33,057 bases of DNA, taken from the NCBI GenBank assembly GCA_027311025.1, contig DAICZS010000018.1, positions 1 through 33,057 of the forward strand. The letters run 5' to 3'. This stretch comes from Ferrovaceae bacterium. Lineage in GTDB: Bacteria; Pseudomonadota; Gammaproteobacteria; Burkholderiales; Ferrovaceae. A program made the translations under genes and the position numbers. The notes under the pieces were generated by a model that was not told where the DNA came from, made no database searches, and was given only the letters and a program-made list of their open reading frames with translations. How positions within the stretch are numbered: position 1 is the stretch's first letter; each line of letters starts with the position of its first letter. This document shows positions 7,153 through 24,655 of this stretch, one piece after another.

Positions 7153-7356
7153 ATGGATGGACACGATCTCAAGGACAGCAAGGACAGCCGGGTCCCCGAT
7201 GACGTGGGGCACCTGATGGCACATATCAGGGGCCATCACTTACCCTATCAGGAAATCGTCCAAAATCAGAAAACCCTCTCAGCAGCATCCCGCTGGTCAT
7301 TGATGCAGGAAGCCCTGGAATCTGGCGGCCCTGAAGGCCATTCCACACCCGAGTGA
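7153..7356 (+). CDS. bcsR: BcsR-like cellulose biosynthesis protein
   Basis: A 67-aa cytosolic protein that opens the cellulose operon. Its second half, LPYQEIVQNQKTLSAASRW followed by SLMQEA, aligns with E. coli BcsR (IDYADISQREQLAAALKRW then PLLAEF). The shared pattern is Y-x-x-I-x-Q then a spaced RW and a Leu-rich end. In E. coli BcsR binds BcsQ and the pair associates with the inner-membrane synthase complex. Position immediately before bcsQ with a TGATG stop/start overlap supports the call. The start is uncertain. ATG 7153 has no leader beyond the predicted promoter, while an in-frame ATG at 7216 has GTGGGG 6 nt upstream and would give a 46-aa protein that keeps the conserved part. Confidence 0.75.
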   Translation: MDGHDLKDSKDSRVPDDVGHLMAHIRGHHLPYQEIVQNQKTLSAASRWSLMQEALESGGPEGHSTPE

Positions 7357-8114: not shown

Positions 8115-10669
8115 ACCAGCGGGCAATTGATACCTTTCTGCGCGCTTGCGGGGTGACACCGCAACCATCCTGGCCCAGGATGTTGCTGTCGTTGATTTTT
8201 GTGAACCCACCACAAAAACCTGCCGCCCTCTTTCCGCACATTGATTTCACCCACCCCCATCTGGCAGACGTGGTGCGTATTCCGTTGCAGTTGCTTTGGC
8301 TCATTCTCGTCCGACCCCGTCGCGCGCCGCCCGCTCACGCGCGCCCCTCCGTTGCACATCGATATCGTGTCCGCGCGGTCCGCCTGGCCCATCAGCTCTG
8401 GCAGCGCGCCGCGCCCATACGATTGCGCATGGCGCGGCTGCTCACTCCCAACTTGCGGCATGCGCAGAAAACGCTCACGAAGATGGCCACCTCACACGAG
8501 TTCTGGGACCGCAGCTTCATCCGGTACAGCGCCTACGGAGCCTCGGTGTTGATGGCTTTTCTTTGTGTCACCACGCCGTTTGGCACGCTCTCCCAACTGG
8601 TCTTCGTCTTACTCCTGCTGGCCACGGCCCTGCTGATCCGGCGCATCCCAGGCAGCACCGTCACCCTGTTGCTAACCGTGCTTTCAGTCACGGCCTCCTC
8701 ACGCTATCTGTGGTGGCGCATCAGCGCCACCCTCAACTGGGATGAGACCTTCGACCTGATGTGGGGCGCCCTGTTGCTGACCGCAGAAATCTACACCTAC
8801 TTCTTCCTCGTAATGAGTTACATCCAGACATCCTGGCCGCTTTATCGCAAACCTCTGGCCATGCCGGCCAACACCACGCTATGGCCAATGGTGGACGTAT
8901 TCATTCCGACCTACAACGAACCCCTCAAGGTGGTCCGTTCCACTGTGTTTGCTGCCATGGGCATGGACTGGCCACAGGACAAGTTGCGCATCCACCTGCT
9001 GGATGACGGGCGTCGCGAGGAATTCCGCTACTTTGCAGAGAACCTTGGCGTGAACTACATCACGCGCCTCAACAACGACTTTGCTAAAGCCGGCAATCTC
9101 AACCATGCGCTGGCTCACACCGCCGGGGAGTACATTGCAATATTCGACTGCGACCACATCCCTACCCGATCCTTCCTGCAAGTCAATATGGGGTGGTTTC
9201 TTGAAGACCCCAAACTCGCTCTGGTCCAGACGCCCCATCATTTTTATTCCGCCGACCCCTTCGAGCGCAATCTCGACACGTTCAAAAAAATCCCCAATGA
9301 GGGCGAACTGTTCTATGGCCTGATCCAGGACGGCAACGATTTGTGGAATGCTGCTTTCTTCTGCGGCTCTTGTGCCATTTTGCGGCGTACGGCCCTGGAG
9401 GCCGTTGGCGGCATTGGCGTTGAAACCGTCACGGAAGATTCCCACACGGCCCTGAAGCTGCACCGGAAAGGCTACAACTCTGCCTACATCAACATTCCCC
9501 AGGCCGCAGGGCTCGCCACGGAAAGCCTATCGGCCCACATAGGACAACGCATTCGCTGGGCCCGCGGCATGGCACAGATTTTTCGTCTGGATAACCCGTT
9601 TTTTGGAAAAGGGCTGAATTGGGCACAACGCGTCTGCTACAGCAATGCCATGCTGAGTTTTTTCAGCGGCATCCCCCGTCTGATGTTTCTCACCTCGCCG
9701 CTGGCATTTCTGCTGTTTCACGCTTACGTGATTTATGCCCCCGCAATTTCAGTGGTGCTCTACGTGCTACCCCACATGGTCCATGCCACGATCGTCAACT
9801 CGCGCACCCAGGGCAAATACCGCCATTCATTCTGGGCGGAGGTCTACGAAACCGTTCTGTCCTGGTATATTGCCCGACCTACTCTGGTGGCCCTGATCAA
9901 TCCCCGCAAGGGAAAATTCAATGTCACCGCCAAAGGCGGGCTGATTGAAAAGGATTTTTTCGACTGGACCATCGCAACGCCTTTCATCATCCTGATCCTG
10001 CTCAACGCCACCGGTCTCGTGGCCGCAGCCATACGCCTGTTCTGGGGCCCGCAGGACGAGGTGCCCACCGTCATCATCAATCTGGTGTGGACGCTGTATA
10101 ACTGTCTGATCCTGGGAGGCACCCTGTTTCTGGCCTCCGAAGTCAAACAGATCCGCTTGTCGCATCGCGTGCGCATCAAACTGCGCGCCATCCTGCATCT
10201 GCCAGATGGCAAGCTTATCCCCTGCGAGACCGAAGACATCTCGGAGGGGGGCGTTGCCCTCCGGACCAGCGTCAGCACCTTGCCCGCCATTGAACCCAAC
10301 CAACACCTGCAGGTGTCCCTGTGGCGCGGCAATGAAGAACTGATATTCTCGGGGCTTGCGGTTTTTTCATCGACCTCGCAACTGCGCCTGCGCTGGCAGT
10401 TTGAAAACGAAACGGACGCCATGAACCTGATACAATGCACCTTTGGACGGGCGGATGCCTGGGTTTCATGGGCCGAAAACACCCAACATGACAAGCCTCT
10501 GGAAAGCCTGAAAGAAGTGGTCAGCATGGGCATCACCGGCTATCGCCGCGTCATCGAACAATTCTTCCCAAAATTCACCCCCGTCTTCAGGCAACTCGCG
10601 CGGCTGCGCGAGGGCATTGTCTGGTACCTGCCCCGAACGCCCACTCAATCACTGGAACATCGCGCATGA
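8111..10669 (+). CDS. bcsA: Cellulose synthase catalytic subunit BcsA (UDP-forming, GT2 + PilZ)
   Basis: An 852-aa inner-membrane glycosyltransferase that polymerises UDP-glucose into beta-1,4-glucan and threads the chain through its own membrane channel, activated by c-di-GMP. GT2 motifs appear in order: VDVFIPTYNEP, LLDDGRREEF, the UDP/metal-binding FDCDH (about 345-349), the catalytic-base motif TED (441-443) and QRIRW (479-483). Membrane helices flank the GT domain. The C-terminal PilZ domain has both c-di-GMP motifs, RLSHR (RxxxR, about 682-686) and DISEGG (DxSxxG, from 709). The length matches the E. coli protein (872 aa). The frame is open 36 nt upstream, but the ATG at 8111 overlapping the bcsQ stop is the natural start. 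Its stop overlaps bcsB in the same ATGA fashion. Confidence 0.97.
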   Translation: MNQRAIDTFLRACGVTPQPSWPRMLLSLIFVNPPQKPAALFPHIDFTHPHLADVVRIPLQLLWLILVRPRRAPPAHARPSVAHRYRVRAVRLAHQLWQRAAPIRLRMARLLTPNLRHAQKTLTKMATSHEFWDRSFIRYSAYGASVLMAFLCVTTPFGTLSQLVFVLLLLATALLIRRIPGSTVTLLLTVLSVTASSRYLWWRISATLNWDETFDLMWGALLLTAEIYTYFFLVMSYIQTSWPLYRKPLAMPANTTLWPMVDVFIPTYNEPLKVVRSTVFAAMGMDWPQDKLRIHLLDDGRREEFRYFAENLGVNYITRLNNDFAKAGNLNHALAHTAGEYIAIFDCDHIPTRSFLQVNMGWFLEDPKLALVQTPHHFYSADPFERNLDTFKKIPNEGELFYGLIQDGNDLWNAAFFCGSCAILRRTALEAVGGIGVETVTEDSHTALKLHRKGYNSAYINIPQAAGLATESLSAHIGQRIRWARGMAQIFRLDNPFFGKGLNWAQRVCYSNAMLSFFSGIPRLMFLTSPLAFLLFHAYVIYAPAISVVLYVLPHMVHATIVNSRTQGKYRHSFWAEVYETVLSWYIARPTLVALINPRKGKFNVTAKGGLIEKDFFDWTIATPFIILILLNATGLVAAAIRLFWGPQDEVPTVIINLVWTLYNCLILGGTLFLASEVKQIRLSHRVRIKLRAILHLPDGKLIPCETEDISEGGVALRTSVSTLPAIEPNQHLQVSLWRGNEELIFSGLAVFSSTSQLRLRWQFENETDAMNLIQCTFGRADAWVSWAENTQHDKPLESLKEVVSMGITGYRRVIEQFFPKFTPVFRQLARLREGIVWYLPRTPTQSLEHRA

Positions 10670-12897
10670 AACGCAGCCTCGCCGTTCTGCTCGCGCTGTG
10701 CAGCCTTGCTGCCGCTGCCGCCCCCGTCCCGATAACCGCGAGTGGATCACGTGGTGAAACCCGCCACCTGACCCTGCAGCAACTGGGCAACAAGGAAGTG
10801 TTCAAGCTGCGCAATACAGATGGGCAAACCACGGTCAACTTTGGATTTCGCGCAGATGAACTGGCCACCCGCGCAGTGCTTCACCTTCACTATACCTATT
10901 CGCCCGCGCTGATTCCGCTGCAGTCCCATATCCGCGTGCTGCTCAACGAGCAGGTGGTGGGGGTTCTGCCCATTACACGCGAAAGCGGCGGGCAACCCCT
11001 GGTGCGCGACATTCCAGTGGATCCCCGACTCATTTCCGATTTCAACCGGCTCACGCTGCAGTTCATCGCCCACTATACCAACGACAGTTGCGAAGACCCT
11101 CTCAATTCCACCCTGTGGGCAGACATCAACGGCGACAGCAGCCTTGACATCACTCTCGAACATCTTGCCCTGAAAAATGACCTGGCCCTGCTGCCAGAAC
11201 CCTTCTTCGACCATCGCGACCTGAACCGGGTCACCCTGCCTCTTGTCTTTGCAGCCACACCCTCGCGCCAGACGCTGAGCGCTGCAGGGATCGTGGCCTC
11301 CTGGTTTGGAAAACTTGCCGATTGGCGTGGTTCGCGCTTTCCGGCCCATCTCGATGAGGTTCCTGCCGGGCACAGCATCGTTTTTGCCACCAACGACGCC
11401 CGCCCCACCTTCCTGCGTGACCATCCTTCCGTCACTGGTCCCTCGCTTGAAATCATGACCAACCCCACCGACGGCTACTCCAAGCTGCTGGTACTCTGGG
11501 GCCGCAATGATGCCGACCTCAAGACAGTCGCCCTGGCATTGGTGCTGGGCCATACGGCGGCCTCGGGAGCGCGTGTGGCAGTAACGGACGTCAAGGAAGA
11601 AATTCCGCGCACACCCTACGATGCGCCGCGCTGGGTCAGAATCGACCGGCCCATGAAATTTGGCGAGTTGGTGAACTCGCCACAAGACCTGCAGGTGTTT
11701 GGTCATGTACCCAACCCTATCGTCCTCAACCTGCGCATTCCCCCGGACCTGTTTGCCTGGCGCAGTCGCGGCATTCCCGTGGACCTCAAGTTCCGTTACA
11801 CGCCGCCGATTCGATCCAGCGAATCGCGGCTCGTCATGAGCATCAATGATGAAATGGTGCAGGCCTTCAACCTGATGACCACGGGCCAGGGTGGCGAACA
11901 TCGGATTCGCCTGCCCCTCATCGACAGCGCCCTGTTCGGCGCCGGAGACGAGGTTTTCATTCCTGCCTACAAACTTGGCGCGCGCGATCAGTTGCGCTTT
12001 GACTTTACGTTTGCCTACCAGAAAGAAGGCTTTTGCAAGGACACCCAGGTGGAGAATGTCCGTGCCATGGTGGATGACGACTCGACCATCGACATGACCG
12101 GTTTTCCGCATTATGCGGAAATGCCCAACCTGGCCCATTTTTCGACATTGGGATTTCCGTTCACCCGATACGCCGACCTGTCACAGACCGTGATCGTGCT
12201 CCCTGAAAAACCAACGGTCTACGACCTCGAAACCATGTTCACCCTGCTGGGGCGCATGGGCGAAGCTACGGGCTATCCGGCCACGCGTTTTACCCTCGCC
12301 TCCCCCACGGACGAACGCCTGTTCGCCAACGCCGATCTGCTGGTCATCGGCGAGGCCTTGCAACAGGGCACTTTCAAAGGCTGGCATGAGCGGATGCCGG
12401 CTGATGTTTCGGCCAGCTCGCGACGCATCAACCAACCCCAACGTGGCGTCAATCTGTTTTACGACTGGCTGGGATTTGGCACGAAACCCGACACGACCAC
12501 TGCCAGCGAGGAACGCCTGACGGGAAGCGGCCCACTTGCCGCCATGATCGGGTTTGAATCACCGCTGACTTCCGAGCGCAACATCGTTGCCGTCACCGCC
12601 ACCGGCCCAGAACAGCTCCGGCTGGTTCTCGATGCCCTGGAAAAACCTGCATTGATCCGGGATTTTCGCGGTAGCGTGGCCTTTGTTCACCCCGGCCGGG
12701 TGGACAGCCTGCTGGTGGGCAACACCTATTTCATCGGCCATCTCCCCCTCTGGACGGCCATCTGGTTTCCGCTCTCCGGTCACCCCATCCTGCTTGCCAT
12801 CATGGGCAGCCTTGCCGTGCTGGTATTTGCCTTTGCCCTGCTGCGATCCCTCAGGGTCATTGCAGCTCGACGGCTGAAAACAAAAGGCAAGGTGTGA
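10666..12897 (+). CDS. bcsB: Cellulose synthase periplasmic subunit BcsB
   Basis: A 743-aa periplasmic protein anchored by one C-terminal membrane helix, which packs against BcsA and guides the nascent glucan across the periplasm. A signal peptide is evident (MKRSLAVLLALCSLAAAAAP, residues 1-20). The family blocks include FGFRADELATRAVLHLHYTY, NDSCEDPLNSTLWADINGDS, FFDHRDLNRVTLPLVF, VPNPIVLNLRIPPDLFAWRS and KDTQVENVRAMVDDDSTID. The C-terminal anchor is the hydrophobic HPILLAIMGSLAVLVFAFAL followed by basic residues. The length is typical of the family (E. coli 779 aa). It overlaps bcsA by 4 nt and bcsZ by 1 nt. Nothing looks broken. Confidence 0.96.
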   Translation: MKRSLAVLLALCSLAAAAAPVPITASGSRGETRHLTLQQLGNKEVFKLRNTDGQTTVNFGFRADELATRAVLHLHYTYSPALIPLQSHIRVLLNEQVVGVLPITRESGGQPLVRDIPVDPRLISDFNRLTLQFIAHYTNDSCEDPLNSTLWADINGDSSLDITLEHLALKNDLALLPEPFFDHRDLNRVTLPLVFAATPSRQTLSAAGIVASWFGKLADWRGSRFPAHLDEVPAGHSIVFATNDARPTFLRDHPSVTGPSLEIMTNPTDGYSKLLVLWGRNDADLKTVALALVLGHTAASGARVAVTDVKEEIPRTPYDAPRWVRIDRPMKFGELVNSPQDLQVFGHVPNPIVLNLRIPPDLFAWRSRGIPVDLKFRYTPPIRSSESRLVMSINDEMVQAFNLMTTGQGGEHRIRLPLIDSALFGAGDEVFIPAYKLGARDQLRFDFTFAYQKEGFCKDTQVENVRAMVDDDSTIDMTGFPHYAEMPNLAHFSTLGFPFTRYADLSQTVIVLPEKPTVYDLETMFTLLGRMGEATGYPATRFTLASPTDERLFANADLLVIGEALQQGTFKGWHERMPADVSASSRRINQPQRGVNLFYDWLGFGTKPDTTTASEERLTGSGPLAAMIGFESPLTSERNIVAVTATGPEQLRLVLDALEKPALIRDFRGSVAFVHPGRVDSLLVGNTYFIGHLPLWTAIWFPLSGHPILLAIMGSLAVLVFAFALLRSLRVIAARRLKTKGKV

Positions 12898-14054
12898 TGC
12901 GCTGTTCACGCATCCTGTGCTGTTGCATGGCAATTTTATTCATGCTCCCGGCCGCACGGCCAGTTCACGCGGAGAGCTGCAATAAGCCTTGGCCCGCCTG
13001 GAAGGAGTTTCGCGAGCATTTCATCAACGAGGGCGGTCGCGTGATCGACCCCTCGTCCAAAACGCATTACACCACTTCGGAAGGACAAGCCTATGCCCTG
13101 TTCTTTGCGTTGGTGGACAACGACCCGCAAACATTCTCGCGCCTCCTGGAATGGACTGAGGCCAACCTCGCAGGCGGTGACCTCACCAGCCGACTGCCTG
13201 CCTGGGAATGGGGTCAACGTCCTGATGGCTCCTGGGGAGTTCTGGACGAAAATGCGGCTGCCGATGCCGACTTGTGGCTAGCGTACACCCTGTCAGAGGC
13301 GGGCCTTCTGTGGAAGAACCCAAAGTATGCGGCGCTGGGCGAGCTGCTTGCGGATCGCATCCTGCGCGAGGAAAGCGCCGACATTCCCGGACTGGGCCGC
13401 ACCATCCTGCCGGGCCCTCAGGGATTTCATCCCGACAATGACCGCTGGCGCCTCAACCCCAGTTATGTGCCGTTGCAGCTGGTGCGTCGCCTAGCCACGC
13501 TCTATCCCGAATCGGGCTGGTCCCAGCTTGCCGCCCCAGCGCGCCAGATGTTGCTGGGGTCGGCCTTCCACGGTTTTGCGCCCGATTGGGTTATTTATGG
13601 CACTGGACACGGATTTGAACCCGACCCAGCCAGTGGCGACCTGGGCAGCTTTAACGCCATCCGGGTATATCTGTGGGCGGGAATGCTGTCATCCGCCGAC
13701 CCCGATCAGGCGGCGCTGCTCAAGACGCTGGCGCCTATGGGCCGCTATGTGGCAAGCCACGGCACTCCCCCGCTCCAGACGCACCCCATGGCTGGGGCTG
13801 CCGACGGCAACGGCTCCGTGGGGTTTTCAGCGGCCCTGCTGCCGCTCCTGGTTGCCCTGCACCAGCCGGACAGTGTAAGACAGCAGCGCCTGCGACTAGA
13901 GGCCAACCCTCCACAGGGACATCTGGACAACTACTATGACCAGGCCCTGGCCCTGTTTGGATTGGGGTGGCTGGATGGTCATTACAAATTTGCCCGCGAT
14001 GGAAAACTCGTTCCCCACTGGACATGCAAAACGGAATCGCGCGCCTCGCATTGA
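12897..14054 (+). CDS. bcsZ: Periplasmic endo-1,4-beta-glucanase BcsZ (GH8) with altered catalytic base
   Basis: A 385-aa exported GH8 endoglucanase that trims cellulose in the periplasm. The signal peptide ends near PVHA-ES. The catalytic acid is E62 in TTSEGQAYALFF, equivalent to E55 of E. coli BcsZ, and the conserved ADADLWLAY (about 122-130) is present. At the position of the presumed base, where E. coli has SSYDAIRVYMW (D243), this protein has GSFNAIRVYLW: Asn253 instead of Asp, read directly from AAC at 13653-13655. The length around this site is unchanged, so no inserted loop offers a substitute base. Other GH8 blocks (NPSYVPLQL, APDWVIYG, GSVGFSAALLPLL) are intact, so the fold should be kept. 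The ATG at 12897 overlaps the bcsB stop by one base; a GTG at 12894 is possible. Confidence 0.94.
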   Translation: MRCSRILCCCMAILFMLPAARPVHAESCNKPWPAWKEFREHFINEGGRVIDPSSKTHYTTSEGQAYALFFALVDNDPQTFSRLLEWTEANLAGGDLTSRLPAWEWGQRPDGSWGVLDENAAADADLWLAYTLSEAGLLWKNPKYAALGELLADRILREESADIPGLGRTILPGPQGFHPDNDRWRLNPSYVPLQLVRRLATLYPESGWSQLAAPARQMLLGSAFHGFAPDWVIYGTGHGFEPDPASGDLGSFNAIRVYLWAGMLSSADPDQAALLKTLAPMGRYVASHGTPPLQTHPMAGAADGNGSVGFSAALLPLLVALHQPDSVRQQRLRLEANPPQGHLDNYYDQALALFGLGWLDGHYKFARDGKLVPHWTCKTESRASH

Positions 14055-17000
14055 GTCTGCTGCTGGGCAGCGTTCTGGTTCAGGCCGCTGCCCAGGCGCC
14101 TTCCGGACCGGATGCCGCCGTGACCGCGCTGCTGGGACAGGCGCGTTACTGGCAGGGACGCAACCGTCCCGATCTTGCCCAAGAGGCCCTGGACAAGCTT
14201 TTCAGAATCAGCCCCGACATGCCGGACGGGCTGGCAGCCCAGGGCCTGCTTGAATTGCAGAATGGCCAGCCCGATAAGGCGCGCAGCACCCTGGAACACC
14301 TGCGCCACGTACGCCCCAATCATCCAGCCATTTCACAGATCGAACGCCTGCTGCAGATCAGCGGTCCGGACAAAGCCCAGTTACGGCAGGCCCGACAAAT
14401 GGCCAAGAATGGCCAGGTGGACGAGGCGCTGCGCATTTTCCGGAAAATCTTTCCGTCAGGGCCACCCGAAGGCAGCTATGCGGTGGAATACTGGCAGCTC
14501 ATGGCACGAACGGCCCGCGGCCGCGGACCCGCGTTGCGGGCCTTGGAAAAACTGGCTCATGACAATCCGGACAACCTGTCCTATCGCCTTGCACTGGCCC
14601 GGCAACGCACGTCACGCCCGCCCTGGTCGCACCAGGACCTGCAAACCCTCATTGACCTGACCCGCCTGCCAGAATTTTCGCAGGAAGCCCGGAACGCCTG
14701 GCGCGATGCGGTGATGGGACTTGACCTGCTCACGCCGTCGAGCGTACCTCTGCTGTCAGAATATCTGGCCCAGAACCCTGGCGATCTGGGGGTCAAGGAG
14801 CGCCTCAACAACACCTCACAAGCCCTGAAACACCAGCAGGCGTTATTGGCGGACCCCTACTACCAGGCCAAATTGCAGGGACTGGCGCTCCTTCAGCAGG
14901 GTCACTTCGAACGTGCCCGGAAGCTGCTGTTGCAATCCCTCAACAAATTCCCGCAGGATGTGGATGCCGTGGGTGGCGTGGGCCTGACCTTCATGCGGCA
15001 GAGTCGCTACCGCGAAGCCTTGCCCTGGTTCCGCCAGGCCCTGCAGATGCAGCCTGCCGAACGCAGCAAATGGAACGCGCTCCTGCAGTCCTCACGCTTT
15101 TGGGGACTAATGCAGGAGGCCCGGGCCCTGCGCGATGCGCACCAGTACGATGCCGCCGAAACCAAAATCCAACAGGCTCTGGCGCTAGAACCCCTGCAGG
15201 TGGACGCACTGGCGGCCCTGGCGCGCGTGCAGTCAGACCGGATGAAAGCCGAAAATCATCCGGAGGAGGCGATACGCATCCTGGCGGCTGCGCTGCCGCT
15301 GGACCCCGACGACCCGTGGATACGCTACGACCTGGCAGGCCTGTATGCCGAAGCCGGCAACAGGGCTCAGGGGGAAGCCCTGTTTGAAGAACTGTTGCAC
15401 CGCCACCCCCAGGATGCCAGCGATCTGTATGCCTATGCGCTCTACCAGTCGCAACAGGGCGAGCCTGCGAAAGCGCTCGCGACCCTGGAGCATGTGCCCA
15501 AGGCGCAACGCCCTGGCAAGATTGCCGCGTTACAACGGCGGCTGTGGGTCGAAGTCCAGGTGCAGCAGGCACGCCAACTCGCTACCGAACATCATCTCGA
15601 CGCTGCGCGGCAGATGCTCTCCAAAATCGAGAAGGCCGTGGGCCATGACAGCAGTCTCGCCACCGACGTGGCCTTCGCCTGGGCGGCCCAGGATGATGTG
15701 GCCCGTGCTCAGTCCCTGTTCGACAGCATCCTGGCGACCCACCCCGACGAGTCCGCGGCCTGGCATCTGCGTTATGCGAATTTCCTTGCGGACTCGGGCC
15801 CCTCTGACAAACTGCAAAAGGAACTGGCCCTGCTCGATGCCTCGAAACTCACCGGCGAAGAGGCCCGTGATCTCGCGCACCTGCACGAACGCGTGACCCT
15901 CAAAACAGTGGAACAGCGTATCGATGCCGGCGATGCGAAAACGGCCCGTCGCCTGCTTGATCCCTTGCTGGCAGGCTCGCCGGATTCCTCTCAGATGCTT
16001 GAGTTGTCCAGCCAGATTGACAGAATGAACGGTCAGCTCGACCAGGCCATCGACACCCTGCAACGCGCTCTGGGGGAGAACGGCAGCACCTATCAGTACA
16101 AGCGGCTCGCACAGATGCTAGACCAGCGCAACGACTGGCTGTCCTCAGCCTATGACCGGCTGACGCGTGGCGGCACTCCAGGCCAATCCCAGTTTGATTC
16201 CAGTGAAATACCGGTGGAGTGGAAAACCCCCTGGGGTCCGGGTGGCCAGTTGATGTTGCGTTCAGACCAGGTGGCCGTCAGCGCGGGAACACTCAACCTG
16301 CAAGACAGTTATGCCACGCGCACCTTCGGCAGCATGCTGCTGTGTCAGCCTAACTGCTCTGCGGCCCTGACCCAGCAAACCGCCCTGGGTCGCTCCTACA
16401 CCGCGGGTTATTCGGAGGGAGATCTGCGCATGGACCTGGGCACAACGCCCCAGGGATTTGCCGTAACCCACTGGGTTGGCGGCGTCCGGGAAAAGGGTGA
16501 CTTGGGGCCCATCTCCTGGTCCATCGATGCCTCGCGCCGCCCCATTACCAGCACCCTGCTGTCCTATGCCGGCACAAGAGACCCGCGAACCGGGGCCGTT
16601 TGGGGCGGCGTGGTGGCCACGGGCACCACTCTGGGCATGAGCCTGGACAAAGGGGGAACCCTGGGGTTTTGGGCTAACCTCGGCGCTCACCAACTGACGG
16701 GCGACAATGTGGAAAGCAACAACCGCATCCAGTTCATGTCCGGCCTCAACTGGCGGGTCATCAATGAAGACGACCGGCTGTTCTCCACCGGTCTTGGCAC
16801 CATGGTGTGGCATTTCAAGGAAGATGCCGGCGAATTCACTTTCGGTCACGGGGGCTACTACAGCCCGCAACAATACGCCTCGCTGTCGTTGCCCCTCACC
16901 TATGCCCAGCGTTACACGCGCTTTTCTTATGTGGTGCGCGGATCCGTCTTCACTTCCTGGTCGCAGACCAACGCAGCCCCTTACTTTCCCACCAGCAGCG

Positions 17001-17251
17001 CATTGCAGGCCGCAGCGGGCAACCCCACCTATCAGGCAAGCTCGGGGCCTGGCAGCGGTTATTCCGCCATTGCTGCCTGGGAGTATCAGGTCACCCCGCA
17101 CCTGTTTGTCGGCAACCGCCTGGAAATCGAGCGCTCGCCCTACTATGCCCCCAACAGCATGATTTTCTATCTACGCTACGCGCTTGACCGCGCCGCGGCA
17201 CAGCCGGTATTCCTGCAGCCCGAACCCGTAATCCCCACTTCCCAATTCTGA
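14024..17251 (+). CDS. bcsC: Cellulose synthase outer-membrane export subunit BcsC
   Basis: A 1075-aa exporter: a periplasmic TPR superhelix followed by an outer-membrane beta-barrel through which cellulose leaves the cell. The signal peptide is MQNGIARLALSLLLGSVLVQ then AAAQ. TPR units run from about residue 28 to 700, with many repeats such as ALPWFRQALQMQPAERSKWN and AETKIQQALALEPLQVDALA. The C-terminal 350 residues match the BCSC_C barrel domain, with alternating aromatic strands and a terminal strand including MIFYLRYAL before the last residues. The frame is open from 13967, but the ATG at 14024 directly precedes the signal peptide. It overlaps bcsZ by 31 nt, the largest overlap in the operon. 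The length is close to E. coli BcsC (1157 aa). Confidence 0.95.
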   Translation: MQNGIARLALSLLLGSVLVQAAAQAPSGPDAAVTALLGQARYWQGRNRPDLAQEALDKLFRISPDMPDGLAAQGLLELQNGQPDKARSTLEHLRHVRPNHPAISQIERLLQISGPDKAQLRQARQMAKNGQVDEALRIFRKIFPSGPPEGSYAVEYWQLMARTARGRGPALRALEKLAHDNPDNLSYRLALARQRTSRPPWSHQDLQTLIDLTRLPEFSQEARNAWRDAVMGLDLLTPSSVPLLSEYLAQNPGDLGVKERLNNTSQALKHQQALLADPYYQAKLQGLALLQQGHFERARKLLLQSLNKFPQDVDAVGGVGLTFMRQSRYREALPWFRQALQMQPAERSKWNALLQSSRFWGLMQEARALRDAHQYDAAETKIQQALALEPLQVDALAALARVQSDRMKAENHPEEAIRILAAALPLDPDDPWIRYDLAGLYAEAGNRAQGEALFEELLHRHPQDASDLYAYALYQSQQGEPAKALATLEHVPKAQRPGKIAALQRRLWVEVQVQQARQLATEHHLDAARQMLSKIEKAVGHDSSLATDVAFAWAAQDDVARAQSLFDSILATHPDESAAWHLRYANFLADSGPSDKLQKELALLDASKLTGEEARDLAHLHERVTLKTVEQRIDAGDAKTARRLLDPLLAGSPDSSQMLELSSQIDRMNGQLDQAIDTLQRALGENGSTYQYKRLAQMLDQRNDWLSSAYDRLTRGGTPGQSQFDSSEIPVEWKTPWGPGGQLMLRSDQVAVSAGTLNLQDSYATRTFGSMLLCQPNCSAALTQQTALGRSYTAGYSEGDLRMDLGTTPQGFAVTHWVGGVREKGDLGPISWSIDASRRPITSTLLSYAGTRDPRTGAVWGGVVATGTTLGMSLDKGGTLGFWANLGAHQLTGDNVESNNRIQFMSGLNWRVINEDDRLFSTGLGTMVWHFKEDAGEFTFGHGGYYSPQQYASLSLPLTYAQRYTRFSYVVRGSVFTSWSQTNAAPYFPTSSALQAAAGNPTYQASSGPGSGYSAIAAWEYQVTPHLFVGNRLEIERSPYYAPNSMIFYLRYALDRAAAQPVFLQPEPVIPTSQF

Positions 17252-17258: not shown

Positions 17259-17546
17259 ATGCGCCCCGCCATTCTGCTGCTGATAGTCACTGTTCCCGCT
17301 GGCGCCGCAGCGCTGCCACCCTATGATCATTACCAGCCGGAGGTATTGCGGGAGTATGCAAAATACTGGCAGGAAGCACGTGACCCCGGCACGGCCCGCA
17401 TCCTGGAAGAGCGCGCAAGTTTGCTGAACCCGCACCCGCCTGCAATCCGCAAGGGCAAGGAAGCGCCGCCACTCGCAAAACCCGCGCTACCCATGGAGCA
17501 GGTCCCCGCGCTGTGGGATCTGCCTCAGGGCCCTCCCGGGTCGTAG
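17259..17546 (+). CDS. Small exported protein at the end of the bcs operon, function unknown
   Basis: A 95-aa protein I do not recognise. A signal peptide is evident (MRPAILLLIVTVPAGAAA), cleaved before LPPYDHYQPE. The mature part has one helical segment, LREYAKYWQEARDPGTARIL, with a pattern like a single TPR or SEL1 hairpin. A Pro-rich, apparently unstructured tail follows. It starts 8 nt after bcsC and is thus almost certainly co-transcribed, so a periplasmic role next to BcsC or BcsZ is a fair guess. Its last 22 bases overlap the 3' end of the opposing bcsG. Not BcsD, BcsH or BcsO by appearance. Confidence 0.7.
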   Translation: MRPAILLLIVTVPAGAAALPPYDHYQPEVLREYAKYWQEARDPGTARILEERASLLNPHPPAIRKGKEAPPLAKPALPMEQVPALWDLPQGPPGS

Positions 17547-19123
17547 GGTGTCCAGGGCCCATTGCTCTCTTGGCGCAGGTAGTACTGGTTGTTGTAACGC
17601 ATCATGGTCACATCGCCATTTTGCGAAAGCAGGGGCGTGACGGGTAGATCGGCCAGATAATCGCCGGCATTGAAACTGTCGCCGCTGAAGGGTGACTTTT
17701 TCAGGAGGTTGGCCACGATCTGGGAGAGCGCCAGATAACTTGTGGACTCTGCCACCACGACGGGTTCTCCCACACGCCGTGCATTGCCTCCCACCACCTT
17801 GATGCCCACGGGCACCAGGGTGATGGCCGGACTGGGTATTTCGCGCAGGCCCGCAATCTGCATCTTGTCGCCCCGATAGGCTGCGCCATGCTCAGGAACC
17901 AGCACTACGACGGCCTTCGTCCCCGAGGTTTCCAGCACACCCATGAAATGGTCGAGGTCGTCGAGCAAGCGTTCAAGACGCGCCTTGTAGGTGTCATGGC
18001 TATTGCGCCCCATCCCGGAGCCATTGGTCTTGTTGCCATCATGCAGGCTGATGGTGTTATAAAACAGCGCAGCACGGGCGGTATGGTCCTTTTTTCTGTC
18101 CTGCAACCAGCGCGAGAGCACCGCAAAGTCGTCAAATATGGGCGAATCGTCAAACGCGTGCTGGGTCACTGGCATGTTGTCCAGTGACAGGGGGGCCTGG
18201 TTGATGCGTTGCTGCTGCACCAGTTTCAAAAAATCCTCAAAGTGACCATCGTGATTGAGCGCGAGATTGGACTCAAAACCCGCCTGCCTCAAATCCTCCA
18301 TCAGGTAGCAACCCTCAGGTGCCGGAGCGTAAAGCGCTTCATGACGAGGCTGGCCGCAGGGTGCCCGCAGCATGCGTATGACGGCGGGCCCGCTGTAAGA
18401 AGCTGCCGAATTAAAATGCGTGAGGGTGATGTCGAGATGTTTCCAGAGCGGATGCGTGTCAAGCCCCACGGCCCGAAGGTCGTCCCAGGACAGCGAACAG
18501 ATATGCACGAAAATAATATCGAAGGGGGTTGCGTTCGCTGCAGGTGGCATAAAAGTCACCCGGCGTTTAGCTTCGCTTGCAAAGAAATCGCGGTCCACAT
18601 CGTCCAGGCTTTGGGGTTTTGCCGCAGCCTGCGGCGGTGCATTCACATTACCCGCCACTGCTATGCCCTGCAGCGGGTTGACGCTGGCCTGCGGATGCGT
18701 GAACAGAAGCGCGACCATGACCCCCAGCACCAGCACACCCACCCGGACCCATTGGGAAACCAACCGGTAAAACACCGCAATGATGATCAGCAGGGCCACC
18801 ACCTGCACATTGATGAAACGACCGATGAGTTCCACGAGGTAGGAAAGATCGAACTGTGCCAGTAACGAAGCCTGGGAAAACACCCGGCTGACCGGTGGCA
18901 GCCAGGAATCGTGATAGAGCAGTCCTATCGCTATTGGAACAGCGGCAATGCTGCGCACGCGACGCCACCGCTGCGATTGCAGGGGCAGCAGCAACAGCGC
19001 TGCAAACGCCAGATTTTCCAGGGGTTGAAAGCCGATATAGCCCATCCAGTACAGGGCAAGCTTTCCCAGAAAATAAACATTCCATCCCCCCAAGGAGATT
19101 CGTGCCGCCGATGCGTGGTTCAT
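17525..19123 (-). CDS. bcsG: Cellulose phosphoethanolamine transferase BcsG
   Basis: A 532-aa inner-membrane enzyme of the alkaline-phosphatase superfamily that transfers phosphoethanolamine from phosphatidylethanolamine to the glucose O6 of cellulose. About four or five membrane helices occupy residues 14-145, followed by the periplasmic catalytic domain. Key residues align with E. coli BcsG: nucleophile S244 in AASYSGPAVIR (S278), the Cys pair C256/C272 with the same 16-residue spacing (C290/C306), H361 in ISLHDGN (H396), and E411-H412 in VPEHGAAY (E442-H443). All appear intact, so an active enzyme is predicted. The ATG overlaps the bcsF stop (ATGA). The 3' end overlaps the convergent plus-strand small gene by 22 nt. 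Confidence 0.95.
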   Translation of the reverse strand: MNHASAARISLGGWNVYFLGKLALYWMGYIGFQPLENLAFAALLLLPLQSQRWRRVRSIAAVPIAIGLLYHDSWLPPVSRVFSQASLLAQFDLSYLVELIGRFINVQVVALLIIIAVFYRLVSQWVRVGVLVLGVMVALLFTHPQASVNPLQGIAVAGNVNAPPQAAAKPQSLDDVDRDFFASEAKRRVTFMPPAANATPFDIIFVHICSLSWDDLRAVGLDTHPLWKHLDITLTHFNSAASYSGPAVIRMLRAPCGQPRHEALYAPAPEGCYLMEDLRQAGFESNLALNHDGHFEDFLKLVQQQRINQAPLSLDNMPVTQHAFDDSPIFDDFAVLSRWLQDRKKDHTARAALFYNTISLHDGNKTNGSGMGRNSHDTYKARLERLLDDLDHFMGVLETSGTKAVVVLVPEHGAAYRGDKMQIAGLREIPSPAITLVPVGIKVVGGNARRVGEPVVVAESTSYLALSQIVANLLKKSPFSGDSFNAGDYLADLPVTPLLSQNGDVTMMRYNNQYYLRQESNGPWTPYDPGGP

Positions 19124-19266
19124 GAGACGCGAGAACGCCGATAGGGCCGCAATACCCGCGGTTCGAATTTTTTTTCCTGCCGTTGCTCAAGCCAACGTGG
19201 CAGCCGCAGGCCCACGACCAAGCCAATAGCCATGCCTAAGCCCAGCAAGACAAGAATTTCGGTCAC
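19120..19266 (-). CDS. bcsF: Cellulose biosynthesis protein BcsF (short membrane protein)
   Basis: A 48-aa ORF with a GTG start. The translation begins (f)MTEILVLLGLGMAIGLVVGL: one membrane helix over about residues 4-20, then RLPRWLEQRQEKKFEPRVLR and a basic end, PYRRSRVS. This is the layout of E. coli BcsF (63 aa): an N-terminal helix with a basic cytoplasmic tail containing KPRYVKP, here FEPRVLRPY. In E. coli BcsF recruits BcsE to the membrane and works with BcsG. The gene fits exactly between bcsE and bcsG: its GTG overlaps the bcsE TGA by 4 nt (GTGA) and its TGA overlaps the bcsG ATG. Assignment rests on position, topology and weak similarity. Confidence 0.82.
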   Translation of the reverse strand: MTEILVLLGLGMAIGLVVGLRLPRWLEQRQEKKFEPRVLRPYRRSRVS

Positions 19267-20846
19267 GGCAACGGCTCCTTACGGGCAGCGCGCAACGGCA
19301 ACGGGCGTCTTCGGGCGGGAACAGGCGGACGCTGGGGTGCAGCGCTCATTCTGTTGGTGGAAGTTATTTGCACGGGCGCCGAAACTTTTTCCGTGGCCCG
19401 TTCGTGCTCACCCTGCCGCCGGGATAATGCATCGATGGCCTGAGCAATGGTTTCCAGCGACAGAAAGCGCACTTCCCCTTCGGAGAGTTCGCTTACTGGA
19501 ATTCGGAACAGGCGGTCCATGGCCATATCCACATACTCCTCGCGACAGGAATAAAAGAAAACATAAATGCTTTCATCATCTGCGGTATATAAATCGCCCA
19601 TCCGTTGCGTTTCCAGTCTCGTCAGCACCTCCAGCGGTTTCAGGCCGGGTGGAGGCAACAGGCGCACCAGCGCATGCGCGACCGACAGCTGGTTCCCATG
19701 CCCGATGGCCTGGCGCACCATGGCCACAAACTCTGGCAATGGCTGAAATCCGTGGGTCCTGGGCTGCCTTACCTCACCCAGGAACGCGTCGATATCGGCG
19801 GGCAGGACGCGCGCATACACTTGTCCCATCAGGGCATCGAGCAAACCGCGTACGCGATTAAAGTTCACTTCGGCAGGAATCACCAGATTGGCCCCCACTT
19901 GGAATAATAGGAGTTCCTGATTGTAGCGCAGGTGAGCATTCACTTCGCGTACCACGATCTTGACGCGCGCGCCAAACATCTGGCGCAGGGTGAATACCGT
20001 CTGCGCCAACGATTCCAGCGACATGGTCGAATCAAAATGCAGCAGCAGGGTTGCGGCCACCAGCCCGGAAAGTCTGGCGCTGAATAGATCGTTGGATTCC
20101 AGCACCTCCCAGCCTACGGGAGCAGTAGGCCCCGTCAGCGCCGCACGCGAGACCACCACACGCCCCTCATCCAGAATCCCCGATTGCTCGCCCACCCCCA
20201 CCAGGGACAGCGCCTCCTCCTTGCACAACCACCCATCCTTGCGAATGCCAAGACGGTAGGCCTGATGCGCTACCACTGCTGCGTCTGCAAACCAGTAGTC
20301 CACAGTCCAGTGCGGTGACTGCGACTGCATCTCCAATCGGGCAACCCCTGACAGCAAGGGTACGACAGCGGGCTGCCCACTGCCTGCTGGCACCAGCAGC
20401 AATACGGAACAGCGGTGCTGCCTTGCCCATTGGCACAACTGCCGCAACGCCACATCAATGCCTGGAGACTGCGGAGCAAAGAGAAAACGGTCGGCCTGCT
20501 CGATCAGGATGAGCTGGTCGTCCATACCCGTAAAATAATCGAGTTCCTCCTGCACCCTGGAGATGCCTTCGGGTGTGCCGGCCATGAACGTGCGGATATT
20601 GCCAAGGTCCATAGCCGCCGCCAACTGCTGCAGCAACGGTCCGCCTGCGACCAGAAGAGGTTCGGGATCGGTCGCGGTAATCCAGACCGTCCTTCCCATC
20701 GCCTCACTAGCCCTGACGAGCGTTGCCCAGACGAGGTTGTCCAGGGGCGCATCGTCCGCATACGATACCCAGTACACGCCCCCGGGCGAAACCCGCAAGA
20801 CGGCCTCGGGAATCTGCGCAATGGCTATGAGGGGGACGGACCACAT
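19263..20846 (-). CDS. bcsE: Cellulose biosynthesis c-di-GMP-binding protein BcsE (GIL domain)
   Basis: A 527-aa cytosolic regulator that boosts cellulose synthesis by binding c-di-GMP and docking on BcsR/BcsQ and BcsF. The N-terminal half resembles an inactive NTPase/REC-like scaffold (DDQLILIEQADRFLF, then HRCSVLLLVPAGSG). The GIL region includes LRYNQELLLFQVGANLVIP and then the RxGD ligand motif, RMGD at residues 415-418, the numbering reported for E. coli BcsE. The C-terminal 50 residues are Pro/Arg-rich and probably unstructured. The frame is open from a TTG at 20858, but I chose the ATG at 20846, which has GGGG about 8 nt upstream. It overlaps the 3' end of the diguanylate cyclase gene by 22 nt, so the two are probably translationally coupled. 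Confidence 0.92.
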   Translation of the reverse strand: MWSVPLIAIAQIPEAVLRVSPGGVYWVSYADDAPLDNLVWATLVRASEAMGRTVWITATDPEPLLVAGGPLLQQLAAAMDLGNIRTFMAGTPEGISRVQEELDYFTGMDDQLILIEQADRFLFAPQSPGIDVALRQLCQWARQHRCSVLLLVPAGSGQPAVVPLLSGVARLEMQSQSPHWTVDYWFADAAVVAHQAYRLGIRKDGWLCKEEALSLVGVGEQSGILDEGRVVVSRAALTGPTAPVGWEVLESNDLFSARLSGLVAATLLLHFDSTMSLESLAQTVFTLRQMFGARVKIVVREVNAHLRYNQELLLFQVGANLVIPAEVNFNRVRGLLDALMGQVYARVLPADIDAFLGEVRQPRTHGFQPLPEFVAMVRQAIGHGNQLSVAHALVRLLPPPGLKPLEVLTRLETQRMGDLYTADDESIYVFFYSCREEYVDMAMDRLFRIPVSELSEGEVRFLSLETIAQAIDALSRRQGEHERATEKVSAPVQITSTNRMSAAPQRPPVPARRRPLPLRAARKEPLP

Positions 20847-22747
20847 GACGGGCCCCAAGCCACTACCTGATTGCGGCCCTGCCTTTTGGCGGTCAAGAGT
20901 GCCTGATCGGCCGCATCGAGAAGTTCTTCGTAGCCTGGCAAATCAAGCGTTTTTTCGGCCACGCCAAAGCTGGCCGTAATTGAGATGGTTGCGCCACCTA
21001 TCTCCATACAGATCGACTCGCAAGCCTTGCGGATGCGATCCGCATGTTGTCGCGCACCATCCAGTGTGGTGTCCGGCAGTATCAGCAGAAATTCTTCGCC
21101 CCCTATCCTGCAAACCAGGTCAGGCAAGCGGGAATGATTACGCAGGATTTGCGCAAAATGTTTAAGTACCCCATCGCCCGTGGCATGGCCGTAACGGTCG
21201 TTGACCTGCTTGAAATGATCGATGTCCATCACGATCACACTCAGATGTCTGCCCACGCGATTGGACTGCGACCATAACTCGGTAAGGCGACGGATGGCAT
21301 GGCGCCGATTATAGAGACCAGTCAACTGGTCAGTAAGCGCCGCCTCTAGCGCTTCGAGATGGAAGGCTGACAACTGTTCGATATCACTGCGCAAACGGTC
21401 GCGTTCTGCGGTAAGGTTGCAGCGGGTCAACAACGTATGCTTGCCGGATGAAAGCCGTGCCTGCAGGGTGGCGCTTTCAACAGGTTTGATCAGGAAATCA
21501 TCTGCCCCCGCTTCAACTGCCTTGAGTGACTGGTCCTTGTCTTTTGGGTGGGTGAGCATAACGATGTACATGCACTCACAGGCTTGGGTATTGCGCAATG
21601 TGGCGACCAGCGTCAGCCCATCAGCGGCGGACATCGTGGCATCCACGATGAGCATGTCTGGGGCGCTTTCCTGGATCACGCGAACGCACTCAGGACCATT
21701 CACGGCAAACAGTACGGTGTAGCCCGATGCCAGAAGCTGTTCTTCCAGAAACTCCCGCTCCCCTCCCTCATCGGCCACAACCAGCACCGACATCACCTTG
21801 GCTGTCACAGTGGCCGCATTGGCGAGATCGGATGACGTGATGACATTGAACGGACGCACGGCCAGCTCGAAAGTCTTGCTCCATGTGGCCCAATCTTCAT
21901 GCATATCCTGGCTCAACGCTACCAGTTTTTCGTTGTCCAACCCCAACGCACTAGCCACAGGCAACAGGGCAGCCAACCCATCAGTGACGGCATTCTTGTC
22001 GGTACTACCCAGCAGGGTGGCAGCCAAACCTTCCGCCAGTTCAAGGCTGTCCCTGATGCGTACGGCACGGGGGTTGGCCGTGACCGGGCCCGGTTCACGG
22101 GGCAACAACACACTCGTGAACAGGGCAGGCATGCCCCAATCCGCCAACATGGCCGCAGACAGCATGGGGCTGGTGAAACCAAATGTCTTTTGTTCCAGAT
22201 CGATTCGTCCCGGCAGGTCTGCCCGGACCTTCAGCACTTCGCTGTATTCAAGAGAAAATAGGGAAGCCAGGCCCAATTCTCCTATACGAGCCAGCAAACC
22301 AAAGGTAAACAGTTCAGCCGCAGGAATGACGTTGATCTGGGAAGCCAGACGCTGACAGACCAGGGCACGCACCAGAGAATGCGCCCAAAATCCTTCATAA
22401 TCGAATTCGCGGCAATTACCCTGACGGTGATTGGCCAACAGCGAAAAGGCCAGAACCACCTGACGCAGTGCCCGGATGCCAATGGAGAGCAGCACATCGG
22501 GAGTGACAGCAACGGCGGGGCGGGGACGCCCGTAGACTGCGGAATTGGCCATCTTGAGCAGGCGCCCGATGCTTGCAGGATCGGTATTGAGCAGAGCGAT
22601 AATTTCAGATACGGGGGCATCTGCGTCTGAGGTCAGCTCCATCAGCCTTAGCGCAACGCCACTGGGGGAAGGTAAATTGTCGCTTGATTTCAGCGCGTCG
22701 AAGCGGTCCCTGCCCAGGCCCCACATGGCACTTCCAGTTACATCCAT
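20825..22747 (-). CDS. HDOD-REC-GGDEF diguanylate cyclase heading the bcsEFG operon
   Basis: A 640-aa cytosolic signalling enzyme predicted to make c-di-GMP from two GTP. An HDOD domain occupies about residues 20-290 (DPASIGRLLKMANSAVYG). A receiver domain follows at about 318-432, with acidic D326/E327, phospho-acceptor D369 (MLIVDATM) and K421 (FLIKPV). A coiled linker leads to the GGDEF domain (about 463-632): DQLTGLYNRR, MDIDHFKQVND and the active-site GGEEF at 549-553. An inhibitory I-site RLPD (540-543) lies exactly five residues before it. All catalytic residues look intact, so this is a feedback-inhibited, phosphorylation-regulated cyclase. It has a strong AGGGGG ribosome-binding site and overlaps bcsE by 22 nt. 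The location implies a dedicated c-di-GMP supply for BcsA and BcsE. No cognate histidine kinase is in the window. Confidence 0.93.
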   Translation of the reverse strand: MDVTGSAMWGLGRDRFDALKSSDNLPSPSGVALRLMELTSDADAPVSEIIALLNTDPASIGRLLKMANSAVYGRPRPAVAVTPDVLLSIGIRALRQVVLAFSLLANHRQGNCREFDYEGFWAHSLVRALVCQRLASQINVIPAAELFTFGLLARIGELGLASLFSLEYSEVLKVRADLPGRIDLEQKTFGFTSPMLSAAMLADWGMPALFTSVLLPREPGPVTANPRAVRIRDSLELAEGLAATLLGSTDKNAVTDGLAALLPVASALGLDNEKLVALSQDMHEDWATWSKTFELAVRPFNVITSSDLANAATVTAKVMSVLVVADEGGEREFLEEQLLASGYTVLFAVNGPECVRVIQESAPDMLIVDATMSAADGLTLVATLRNTQACECMYIVMLTHPKDKDQSLKAVEAGADDFLIKPVESATLQARLSSGKHTLLTRCNLTAERDRLRSDIEQLSAFHLEALEAALTDQLTGLYNRRHAIRRLTELWSQSNRVGRHLSVIVMDIDHFKQVNDRYGHATGDGVLKHFAQILRNHSRLPDLVCRIGGEEFLLILPDTTLDGARQHADRIRKACESICMEIGGATISITASFGVAEKTLDLPGYEELLDAADQALLTAKRQGRNQVVAWGPSCGPSPS

Positions 22748-22817
22748 CCCAACCCCCTGAAGACCCGCTCCATCATACAGGACAACGCCATTTTATTGGG
22801 ATTGGCCACTTTCCTGA

Positions 22818-24161
22818 TCATCGAGGCTGGTTTACCAAAGGGGTTATCGTCGGGGCAGCCACCCCAAGTAACTCAATGACCGCATTGGCGTCCATGTCGG
22901 CCACCCACAGATTGCCACTTCTATCAATTGCAACTCTGGTGGGGTGGGAAAAATAGGGGTTGGTTAAAACCGTACACCCCAAGGAGCAATCACTGGTGGC
23001 GTTCGGCGCAATCTTGATAATATTGGCGCCAACCCCTCCTGCCACCCAGACATTATTGGCACCATCAACGGCCAGACCTTCAGCGCTATTTAGCGCAGCA
23101 CTGGAAAAATTCAGACATCTGCTGGCACAGTTGGCGGGGGCACCATTCTGAATTTCCGTCACGGTGGCAACACCGGTGCCATACACGCTGTTTTCATTGA
23201 CCACCCATACGTTGCCATTGCCATCAGCAGCCATGTCTCCTGGAGAGAGAATGCCAGCACCGGAATAAGTAACCATATTCGAGGTGCCGCCCACATATTC
23301 CAGCACTGAGCCGATATTTGAGGAGTTCGTTCCAGAAACCCAAACATTGTTGCCTGCATCTATCGCGATGCCTGATGAATATCCGAAAGGAAAGGGGTAA
23401 CTGGATAATAGTGTCCCGTCTGTGCCGAACTTCTCCAGGGCAGACTTCAATGAAGCAACCGTCCACAGCGCCCCGTTGCCGTCCACAGCAACGTTGCTTC
23501 CCACAACATGATTATCATTGTAGTTGGTTGGGACAATTTCCTGGACCACACCTGCGTTCGTGATCTGCATCAGAATGGTGCTGTTCGGGACCCAGACCGT
23601 ATTATTGGGATCTACAGCAAGCCCTACAAGATTCCCCGTGAGGCCACCATAACCTCCTGGGTTCGTTGGGTAGGTATACGCTGTACATCCCACTGTGCAA
23701 CCAGAGTTGGCTGTCGCTGGGTGTATTCGGGTTACTCCAGAAAGATTCCCGTTGGCCACCCAAACGTCGCTGTTGCCATCAAGGGCGATGGCGTCCGGCA
23801 TGCTCAGGTTTCCGCCGCCATACACGATCACGTCTGTACTGCTCCCACCGACTTCTTTGACTTGGCCAAGGGTTACCGTCATGACCACGTTGTAGTAGGT
23901 GTTGCCAAGAGCCGAAGCCGCCGGAATAAAAAGCAGCCCGGAGGCTGCGTCATAAATGTCGTACGTCCCTGCAGCAGGTGCCGCCCCAAAAGATTTGATG
24001 GGCCCTAACGTCACAGCCACATTGGTATAGGTTTTACCACCTACAACCACAAAAGGTATAGATAGAAGTTGGCTTGAGGAACTGTAAGAATCCTCCGCAT
24101 GCGCACTCATGTAGATTGGCAAAAGACACAACGAAGTGAGGCAATAAATATAACTTCTCAT
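22818..24161 (-). CDS. Exported NHL/Vgb-like seven-repeat beta-propeller protein
   Basis: A 447-aa exported protein. The signal peptide is MRSYIYCLTSLCLLPIYMSA then HA. An N-terminal beta domain (about 25-110) is followed by seven propeller repeats, each with the core [AV]-x-D-x-x-x-x-[VL]-W-V (for example ALDGNSDVWVANG, AVDPNNTVWVPNS, AIDAGNNVWVSGT, AIDRSGNLWVADM). This is the NHL / virginiamycin B lyase-like pattern, and seven repeats would close one propeller. Three repeats carry a CxxxC pair (CTVGC, CASRC, CSLGC), likely disulfides. There is no evidence of catalysis; ligand or glycan binding is possible. The frame is open from 24203 (TTG), but the ATG at 24161 gives a proper signal peptide. 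It follows the 147-aa gene by 50 nt. Confidence 0.8.
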   Translation of the reverse strand: MRSYIYCLTSLCLLPIYMSAHAEDSYSSSSQLLSIPFVVVGGKTYTNVAVTLGPIKSFGAAPAAGTYDIYDAASGLLFIPAASALGNTYYNVVMTVTLGQVKEVGGSSTDVIVYGGGNLSMPDAIALDGNSDVWVANGNLSGVTRIHPATANSGCTVGCTAYTYPTNPGGYGGLTGNLVGLAVDPNNTVWVPNSTILMQITNAGVVQEIVPTNYNDNHVVGSNVAVDGNGALWTVASLKSALEKFGTDGTLLSSYPFPFGYSSGIAIDAGNNVWVSGTNSSNIGSVLEYVGGTSNMVTYSGAGILSPGDMAADGNGNVWVVNENSVYGTGVATVTEIQNGAPANCASRCLNFSSAALNSAEGLAVDGANNVWVAGGVGANIIKIAPNATSDCSLGCTVLTNPYFSHPTRVAIDRSGNLWVADMDANAVIELLGVAAPTITPLVNQPR

Positions 24162-24211
24162 TGAAGTTACCGTATCAGTTAGGACACGACATTGCGGGTG
24201 CAATTTTTATA

Positions 24212-24655
24212 CTATGGGCAGTTTGTTGGCGTTACCGTGGTCGTCTGGTAGTCCACGTAGACGCCCCCAGGGATGCTCGCTGTCCCACTCGGAAAATTAT
24301 AAGTTTGCCGAATCCCCGTGACGGAACCCACTAGGTTAGATGAAAAATTAACTTCCCACGTGCCTGTCCTGAAGTACGTGGAGGTGGTTTTTGAACCACT
24401 GAAAGTGCCTTCCAACGTGGCGCCAACCAACTCGACCTCACCTACCAGAGCATAGGAGATGCCGTCGCCATCATCAAACAACCCGGTATAAGTGTAATGA
24501 TTCATACCGCTCTGGGTAATAGAAAATCGCAGCAGGCTTCCCTTGGCGGTCAGCCAGCACAGGTCTCCTAGCTCGGTCGCCGTTGCACTCGTCGCAGCCA
24601 GGCAAAGGCCGCTCAATGTAGCAATGCACAACAAAATACGCCGGTACACTTTCAT
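24212..24655 (-). CDS. Small exported protein, function unknown
   Basis: A 147-aa protein. The signal peptide is MKVYRRILLCIATLSGLCLA then ATSATA, cleaved near TATA-TELG. The mature part is beta-rich (LRFSITQSGMNHYTYTGLF, then VGEVELVGATLEGTFSGSKT) and has two Cys, one near each end (DLCWL and the terminal NCP), which could form a disulfide. The shape suggests a small beta-barrel or beta-sandwich. I do not recognise the family. AAAGGG lies 7 nt before the ATG. It is the upstream gene of a probable two-gene unit with the propeller protein; both are exported and may act together. Confidence 0.72.
   Translation of the reverse strand: MKVYRRILLCIATLSGLCLAATSATATELGDLCWLTAKGSLLRFSITQSGMNHYTYTGLFDDGDGISYALVGEVELVGATLEGTFSGSKTTSTYFRTGTWEVNFSSNLVGSVTGIRQTYNFPSGTASIPGGVYVDYQTTTVTPTNCP

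Follow-up and report, generated by a model that had tools for sequence, protein, structure and literature searches.

Results

A diguanylate cyclase gene overlaps bcsE

The window analyzed here, a 33,057-nucleotide stretch of contig DAICZS010000018.1 (assembly GCA_027311025.1) from a Ferrovaceae bacterium, carries a cellulose (bcs) locus in which four overlapping genes occupy minus-strand positions 22747–17525. These encode a diguanylate cyclase of HDOD-REC-GGDEF type, predicted to make bis-(3′-5′)-cyclic dimeric GMP (c-di-GMP), the regulator BcsE, a BcsF candidate and the transferase BcsG (Table 1). The gene arrangement described in a first-pass annotation, made from the DNA letters alone, is confirmed: the coordinates give a 22-nucleotide (nt) overlap between the 3′ end of the cyclase gene and the start of bcsE, followed by a GTGA overlap of bcsE with bcsF and an ATGA overlap of bcsF with bcsG. 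A TTG at 20858 is an alternative start of bcsE and would give a cyclase overlap of 34 nt instead of 22 nt; the ATG at 20846 is favored, being consistent with the starts of homologues. Before this ATG lies only a short run of G residues, judged by eye to be at best a weak ribosome-binding sequence, which would suit translational coupling from the cyclase gene to bcsE. As the frames overlap, the cyclase gene is very probably co-transcribed with bcsEFG. A megablast search of plasmid sequences with positions 17525–24700 gave no match.

The remaining bcs genes lie on the plus strand and converge on the minus-strand group. The same gene set, with bcsEFG on its own strand, is found in E. coli, where bcsEFG and bcsRQABZC are divergent, whereas in the window they are convergent. 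As the first-pass annotation had held, E. coli differs also in its cyclase: strain K-12 has none before bcsE, and the c-di-GMP gene of its bcs locus is pdeK, beside bcsC.

Table 1 Genes, domains and motifs of the cyclase-bcsEFG region and its surroundings. Positions are those of the window; residues are those of the encoded protein.
Feature	Position	Strand	Remarks
HDOD-REC-GGDEF diguanylate cyclase gene, MmoQ-like response regulator	22747..20825	-	640 amino acids
HDOD domain	22112..22675	-	residues 25-212; Pfam HDOD 1.2e-36
Receiver (REC) domain	21452..21787	-	residues 321-432; Pfam Response_reg 2.2e-19
GGDEF domain	20867..21340	-	residues 470-627; Pfam GGDEF 2.1e-45, profile 1-161 of 161
I-site RxxD	21130..21119	-	residues 540-543; five residues ahead of GGEEF
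GGEEF signature	21103..21089	-	residues 549-553; in full-length GGDEF domain
Overlap of cyclase 3′ end and bcsE start	20825..20846	-	22 nt
bcsE, c-di-GMP-binding regulator (predicted)	20846..19263	-	527 amino acids; ATG start; RMGD 415-418
bcsF candidate	19266..19120	-	48 amino acids; GTG start
bcsG, cellulose phosphoethanolamine transferase	19123..17525	-	532 amino acids; ATG start
bcsR-bcsQ-bcsA-bcsB-bcsZ-bcsC	7153..17251	+	convergent with bcsGFE-cyclase group
Beta-propeller-like (NHL/SGL) open reading frame	22818..24203	-	co-directional; 70-nt gap to cyclase gene
Small open reading frame, no family match	24212..24655	-	precedes propeller frame; probably secreted (by eye)

The cyclase retains its catalytic, inhibitory and phospho-acceptor residues

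The Pfam domains bear out the HDOD-REC-GGDEF architecture, and both the GGEEF signature and the I-site are intact, as had been claimed. The DxLT and NRR motifs are likewise preserved, and this set of catalytic and I-site motifs suggests an active, c-di-GMP-making enzyme. The description of the protein as phospho-regulated stands in part. The receiver contains the acceptor Asp369 together with Thr399 and Lys421, while its acidic positions read Ala325-Asp326-Glu327; by comparison, positions 325–326 are DD or ED in 11 of the 17 homologues aligned. Phospho-regulation of the cyclase is likely.

By sequence, the matches of the cyclase in the PDB are led by PleD, followed by MmoQ and WspR-type proteins. 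Its HDOD domain and linker (residues 22–295) match MmoQ (PDB 3ljx) with an E value of 9e-44. A structure model built from six sequences has a mean predicted local distance difference test (pLDDT) score of 75 and contains a continuous helix, residues 425–470, that joins the REC and GGDEF domains; its best fold matches in the PDB are WspR-type proteins and PleD. The predicted template modeling score of this model is 0.45, so its domain packing is not trusted, and a single-sequence model (mean pLDDT 39) was discarded. Among the 25 NCBIfam models listed, of 102 that match the cyclase, only that of the general GGDEF domain passes its cut-off, and the protein therefore belongs to none of the named cyclase types that those 25 include; for PleD the score is 243 bits, where the cut-off is 474.

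The same genome encodes a paralogue on contig C41 (L081, 9364–11238) of HDOD-x-GGDEF type, which is 30% identical to the cyclase and lacks the equivalents of Asp369, Thr399 and Lys421. The gene for this paralogue with a degenerate receiver sits just upstream of a RuBisCO large-subunit gene, and proteins that score like it are present in several genomes of the family.

Putative c-di-GMP receptors are encoded in the same locus

The window BcsE exceeds the cut-offs of the Pfam CBP_BcsE model (346.9 bits against 25, E 2.4e-103) and of TIGR03369 (265 bits against 244.65), and falls under that of the enterobacterial model PRK15045 (131 against 929). It matches the E. coli BcsE structures by sequence, its Arg-Met-Gly-Asp motif (RMGD, 415–418) aligns with E. 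coli R415TGD418, and it should bind c-di-GMP. As BcsA has a PilZ domain, two putative c-di-GMP receptors, the BcsE RMGD motif and the BcsA PilZ domain, are encoded within the locus. BcsG is matched by Pfam CBP_BcsG at 1.5e-200. The identity of bcsF is less firm: the 48-residue frame has the expected place and length and aligns with E. coli BcsF at 27% identity, but the BcsF family model did not match it at an E value of 0.001, nor at 1.

Crystal structures show E. coli BcsE to be a degenerate REC-GGDEF protein, and it is proposed to keep a c-di-GMP pool near BcsA (PMC7439463). A derivation of BcsE from the neighboring cyclase found no signal in a profile comparison (probability 0.3%), a null result that is compatible with remote homology. 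Such homology may still exist because the E. coli protein has this REC-GGDEF fold in crystals.

The adjacency is absent from the other bcsE loci sampled

BcsE was searched for in a relatives set of 150 genomes (5 matches), in samples of the order (399 genomes, 15 matches), the class (369, 2) and the phylum (299, 7), and in four further samples: the order of G484 (1 genome, 1 match), the family of G386 (150, 17), the family of G151 (4, 1) and the order of G1029 (148, 10). These samples overlap, and the genome of the window is counted in the first four. One match, in G083, is weak (below cut-off, with an internal stop) and was left out. The resulting 46 bcsE loci comprise 40 genome loci outside the window, E. 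coli K-12 and 5 of 25 BcsE records from a plasmid collection. Their open reading frames were searched with a GGDEF model made from 113 domains; at least 3.09 kb of upstream DNA was covered in every locus (least in L085), several of the contigs being short.

In none of the 46 loci does a same-strand GGDEF gene precede bcsE, none has one adjoining bcsE upstream, and none contains an HDOD-GGDEF gene. A GGDEF gene of any kind occurs in the covered flanks of only three, in each case without HDOD: 7.8 kb downstream of bcsE in L086; 1.8 kb downstream on the opposite strand, as a GGDEF-EAL gene, in L118; and 3.7 kb upstream on the opposite strand, as a REC-GGDEF gene (13874–14842), in L139, from a genome of another family of the order. 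Two further loci (L090 and L122) have an EAL protein without GGDEF in their flanks. The conservation of the adjacency that the first-pass annotation had proposed to survey was thus not found in this sample, which is the first of the two outcomes that it had named as refuting its reading.

Closer to the window, bcsE was found in none of the four same-genus genomes, with the caveat that their completeness is just 57–88%. One other same-family genome with bcsE was found, G029; it shares the convergent bcsC/bcsG layout of the window, and before its bcsE stands a divergent dgkA and no cyclase gene. Among 47 BcsE proteins placed in a tree, that of the window pairs with the one of G029 (support 99/79) within a well-supported set of five (100/99). 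Most simply, the cyclase gene would have been gained on the branch of the window; alternatively, it may have been lost in G029. Common ancestry of the cyclase-bcsE linkage is unsupported, as the sampled bcsE-bearing relatives are without it.

HDOD-REC-GGDEF proteins are widespread and, at the other loci examined, unlinked to bcs genes

Residues 1–460 of the cyclase were compared with 150 genomes (that of the window and 149 relatives), giving 23 matches that span HDOD and REC at 30–38% identity in 19 of the genomes; matches below 30%, the paralogue group, are not included in this count. Neighborhoods were taken for 20 of the 23, leaving out three homologues from G112. A GGDEF domain is also present in 19 of these 20, and the remaining one runs off its contig. 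The architecture is, judging from these sequences, common and ordinary, and together with the absence of the adjacency from the other loci sampled this leaves the distinct signaling design that the first-pass annotation had suggested without support.

No Bcs-like open reading frame lies near the homologues in any of the 20 loci (4.4 to 19.9 kb each). A search of genome contigs with the cyclase likewise returned no Bcs-like frame (E 1e-6) among the best 80 of 404 stretches encoding a relative; within these 80, L001–L005 hold frames with HDOD, REC and GGDEF. A domain scan covered ten neighboring frames at 9 of the 20 loci, chosen as the longest ones lying within 2.5 kb and not always adjacent; three encode histidine kinases and two REC-GGDEF-EAL proteins.

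Comparison with known cyclases

WspR and PleD share with the cyclase the REC-helix-GGDEF order and the I-site. Neither is known to have an N-terminal HDOD domain, and PleD has two REC domains. Nor are the celR2 and divK-celR cyclases known to contain HDOD. These two, from Rhizobium (celR1-celR2) and Agrobacterium (divK-celR), are like the window protein phospho-receiver cyclases, each is encoded in a small operon of its own, and their loss lowers or abolishes cellulose; they differ in being PleD-type proteins of Alphaproteobacteria that are paired with a response regulator rather than with bcsEFG (PMC4646962). The HDOD module and linker resemble those of MmoQ from Methylococcus capsulatus (PDB 3ljx, 3p3q), of which the PDB chains cover the HDOD part only; background on HDOD proteins is given in PMC4114195 and PMC9040570. 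MmoQ is encoded in the methane monooxygenase region and is described as the regulatory partner of the sensor MmoS in a proposed two-component pair (PMC7994243), whereas no sensor gene was found among the window frames scanned.

A survey of cellulose operons, in which bcsE was not a query, ties a PAS-GGDEF locus to operon clades B2/B3; that gene is of PAS_9-GGDEF type, comes from Proteus and Enterobacter and is accompanied by accessory D and GalU genes (PMC7112194). The literature searched, in the parts that were covered, contains no report of an HDOD-REC-GGDEF gene adjoining bcsE. Within the same limits, no cyclase before bcsE is described for Acidithiobacillus (PMC6416229), B. glumae, Zymomonas, Enterobacter FY-07 or Siccibacter, the last of which has yhjK (GGDEF-EAL) beside bcsC. 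Cellulose-linked cyclases are thus already known; what is new here is the HDOD-bearing type and its overlap with bcsE, in one lineage.

Neighboring genes

The cyclase gene directly precedes bcsE, but its standing as the first gene of the operon, as the first-pass annotation had it, is less secure, because two co-directional genes lie upstream and would allow an earlier start of the transcript. Both of these frames begin with signal-peptide-like stretches, as judged by eye. The nearer, propeller-like frame may or may not share a transcript with the cyclase gene: no terminator-like site was found in the 70-nt gap, and a scan for promoters and terminators was uninformative, with a site count no higher than in shuffled sequence. 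No propeller-protein homologue was found in the 46 other bcsE loci.

Some 2.2 kb from the cyclase gene, on the other strand, a gene for a PAS-GAF-PAS-GGDEF-EAL protein (24930–27458, plus strand) encodes a possible counter-enzyme. The window also has dgkA, for diacylglycerol kinase, at its bcs locus (6611–7078, plus strand), and this gene recurs in the covered flanks of 14 of the 46 other bcsE loci (L082, L087, L092, L112, L126–L130 and L132–L136); in 11 of these 14, all from one genus, it immediately precedes bcsE in the same orientation. BcsG takes phosphoethanolamine from phospholipid, which should leave diacylglycerol, and DgkA may recycle it. No paper turned up when the literature was searched for bcsG and diacylglycerol kinase together. 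Two mutually similar proteins of about 1000 amino acids without a Pfam match (3420–6560 and 29969–33055, both minus strand) flank the bcs region, and the gene at 29969–33055 may continue beyond the end of the window.

Discussion

We lean, with moderate confidence, towards the reading that a common MmoQ-type cyclase was recruited ahead of bcsE, is co-expressed with it and supplies c-di-GMP when BcsEFG are made. An HDOD-REC-GGDEF gene would have come to sit directly upstream of bcsE in this lineage, by recruitment rather than ancestry, because the linkage is missing from the 46 other bcsE loci, from the same-family genome G029 and from the 20 homologue loci. The cyclase would be translated from one message with bcsE, bcsF and bcsG. 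Phosphorylation of Asp369 would probably fall to a kinase whose gene lies elsewhere, whereupon the receiver would dimerize and the helix linking REC and GGDEF would align the two catalytic halves; the aligned enzyme would make c-di-GMP until the I-site halts synthesis, and the product would reach BcsE and the BcsA PilZ domain by diffusion. Because the cyclase would be made together with BcsE and BcsG, c-di-GMP would be on hand as the export and phosphoethanolamine machinery is built, and an effect of the cyclase on cellulose would be expected.

Several observations weigh against recruitment for this purpose. The first acidic residue of the receiver is replaced by Ala325, a position that is Asp or Glu in 13 of the 17 homologues aligned, and the 22 window frames scanned include no histidine kinase. 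The genome holds 22 GGDEF matches, so another cyclase could feed cellulose synthesis. An adjacency that is not conserved is, a priori, less likely to be functional, and G029 is a flagged long branch of unsure position in the tree. Some of these points would equally fit a cyclase that stands ahead of bcsE by chance and serves the general c-di-GMP pool or motility, the overlap being a matter of packing. That the adjacency recurs at none of the other bcsE or homologue loci, that the genome has so many GGDEF matches and that the protein type is widespread among relatives of which few have bcsE all speak for such a bystander. We nevertheless consider it rather unlikely, given the shared strand, the 22-nt overlap, the intact motifs and neighboring machinery that should bind the product of the enzyme.

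The recruited cyclase could also act more intimately than by diffusion. If it bound BcsE or the Bcs complex, in line with the hard-wired local signaling of the first-pass annotation, it would deliver c-di-GMP on site; gene order and overlap favor similar expression, signaling in the E. coli cellulose branch is seemingly local and specifically needs DgcC (PMC6510439), and E. coli BcsE is itself a degenerate REC-GGDEF protein (PMC7439463). The linkage is not conserved, however, and the profile comparison detected no BcsE-cyclase similarity, and we regard such channeling as improbable. Still more doubtful is a stricter version in which the cellulose complex would include the cyclase as a subunit gated by a kinase. 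The active REC-GGDEF part of the cyclase would pair with the degenerate one of BcsE, translational coupling would provide equal amounts of the two, and c-di-GMP would be handed to BcsE and BcsA. If that were true, one phosphorylation signal would govern both polymerization and phosphoethanolamine addition. At the other extreme, the protein might have no cyclase function and be a degenerate receptor or scaffold; the atypical acidic residues of its receiver and the loss of the phosphorylation residues in the C41 paralogue point that way, but with the GGEEF, I-site, DxLT and NRR motifs all intact we think this very improbable.

Recruitment of a common cyclase into co-expression with bcsEFG, the reading that we prefer, touches on the wider issue of how a cell with many cyclases steers c-di-GMP to one target. 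As one lineage-private instance in our sample, the arrangement is a curiosity rather than a general design.

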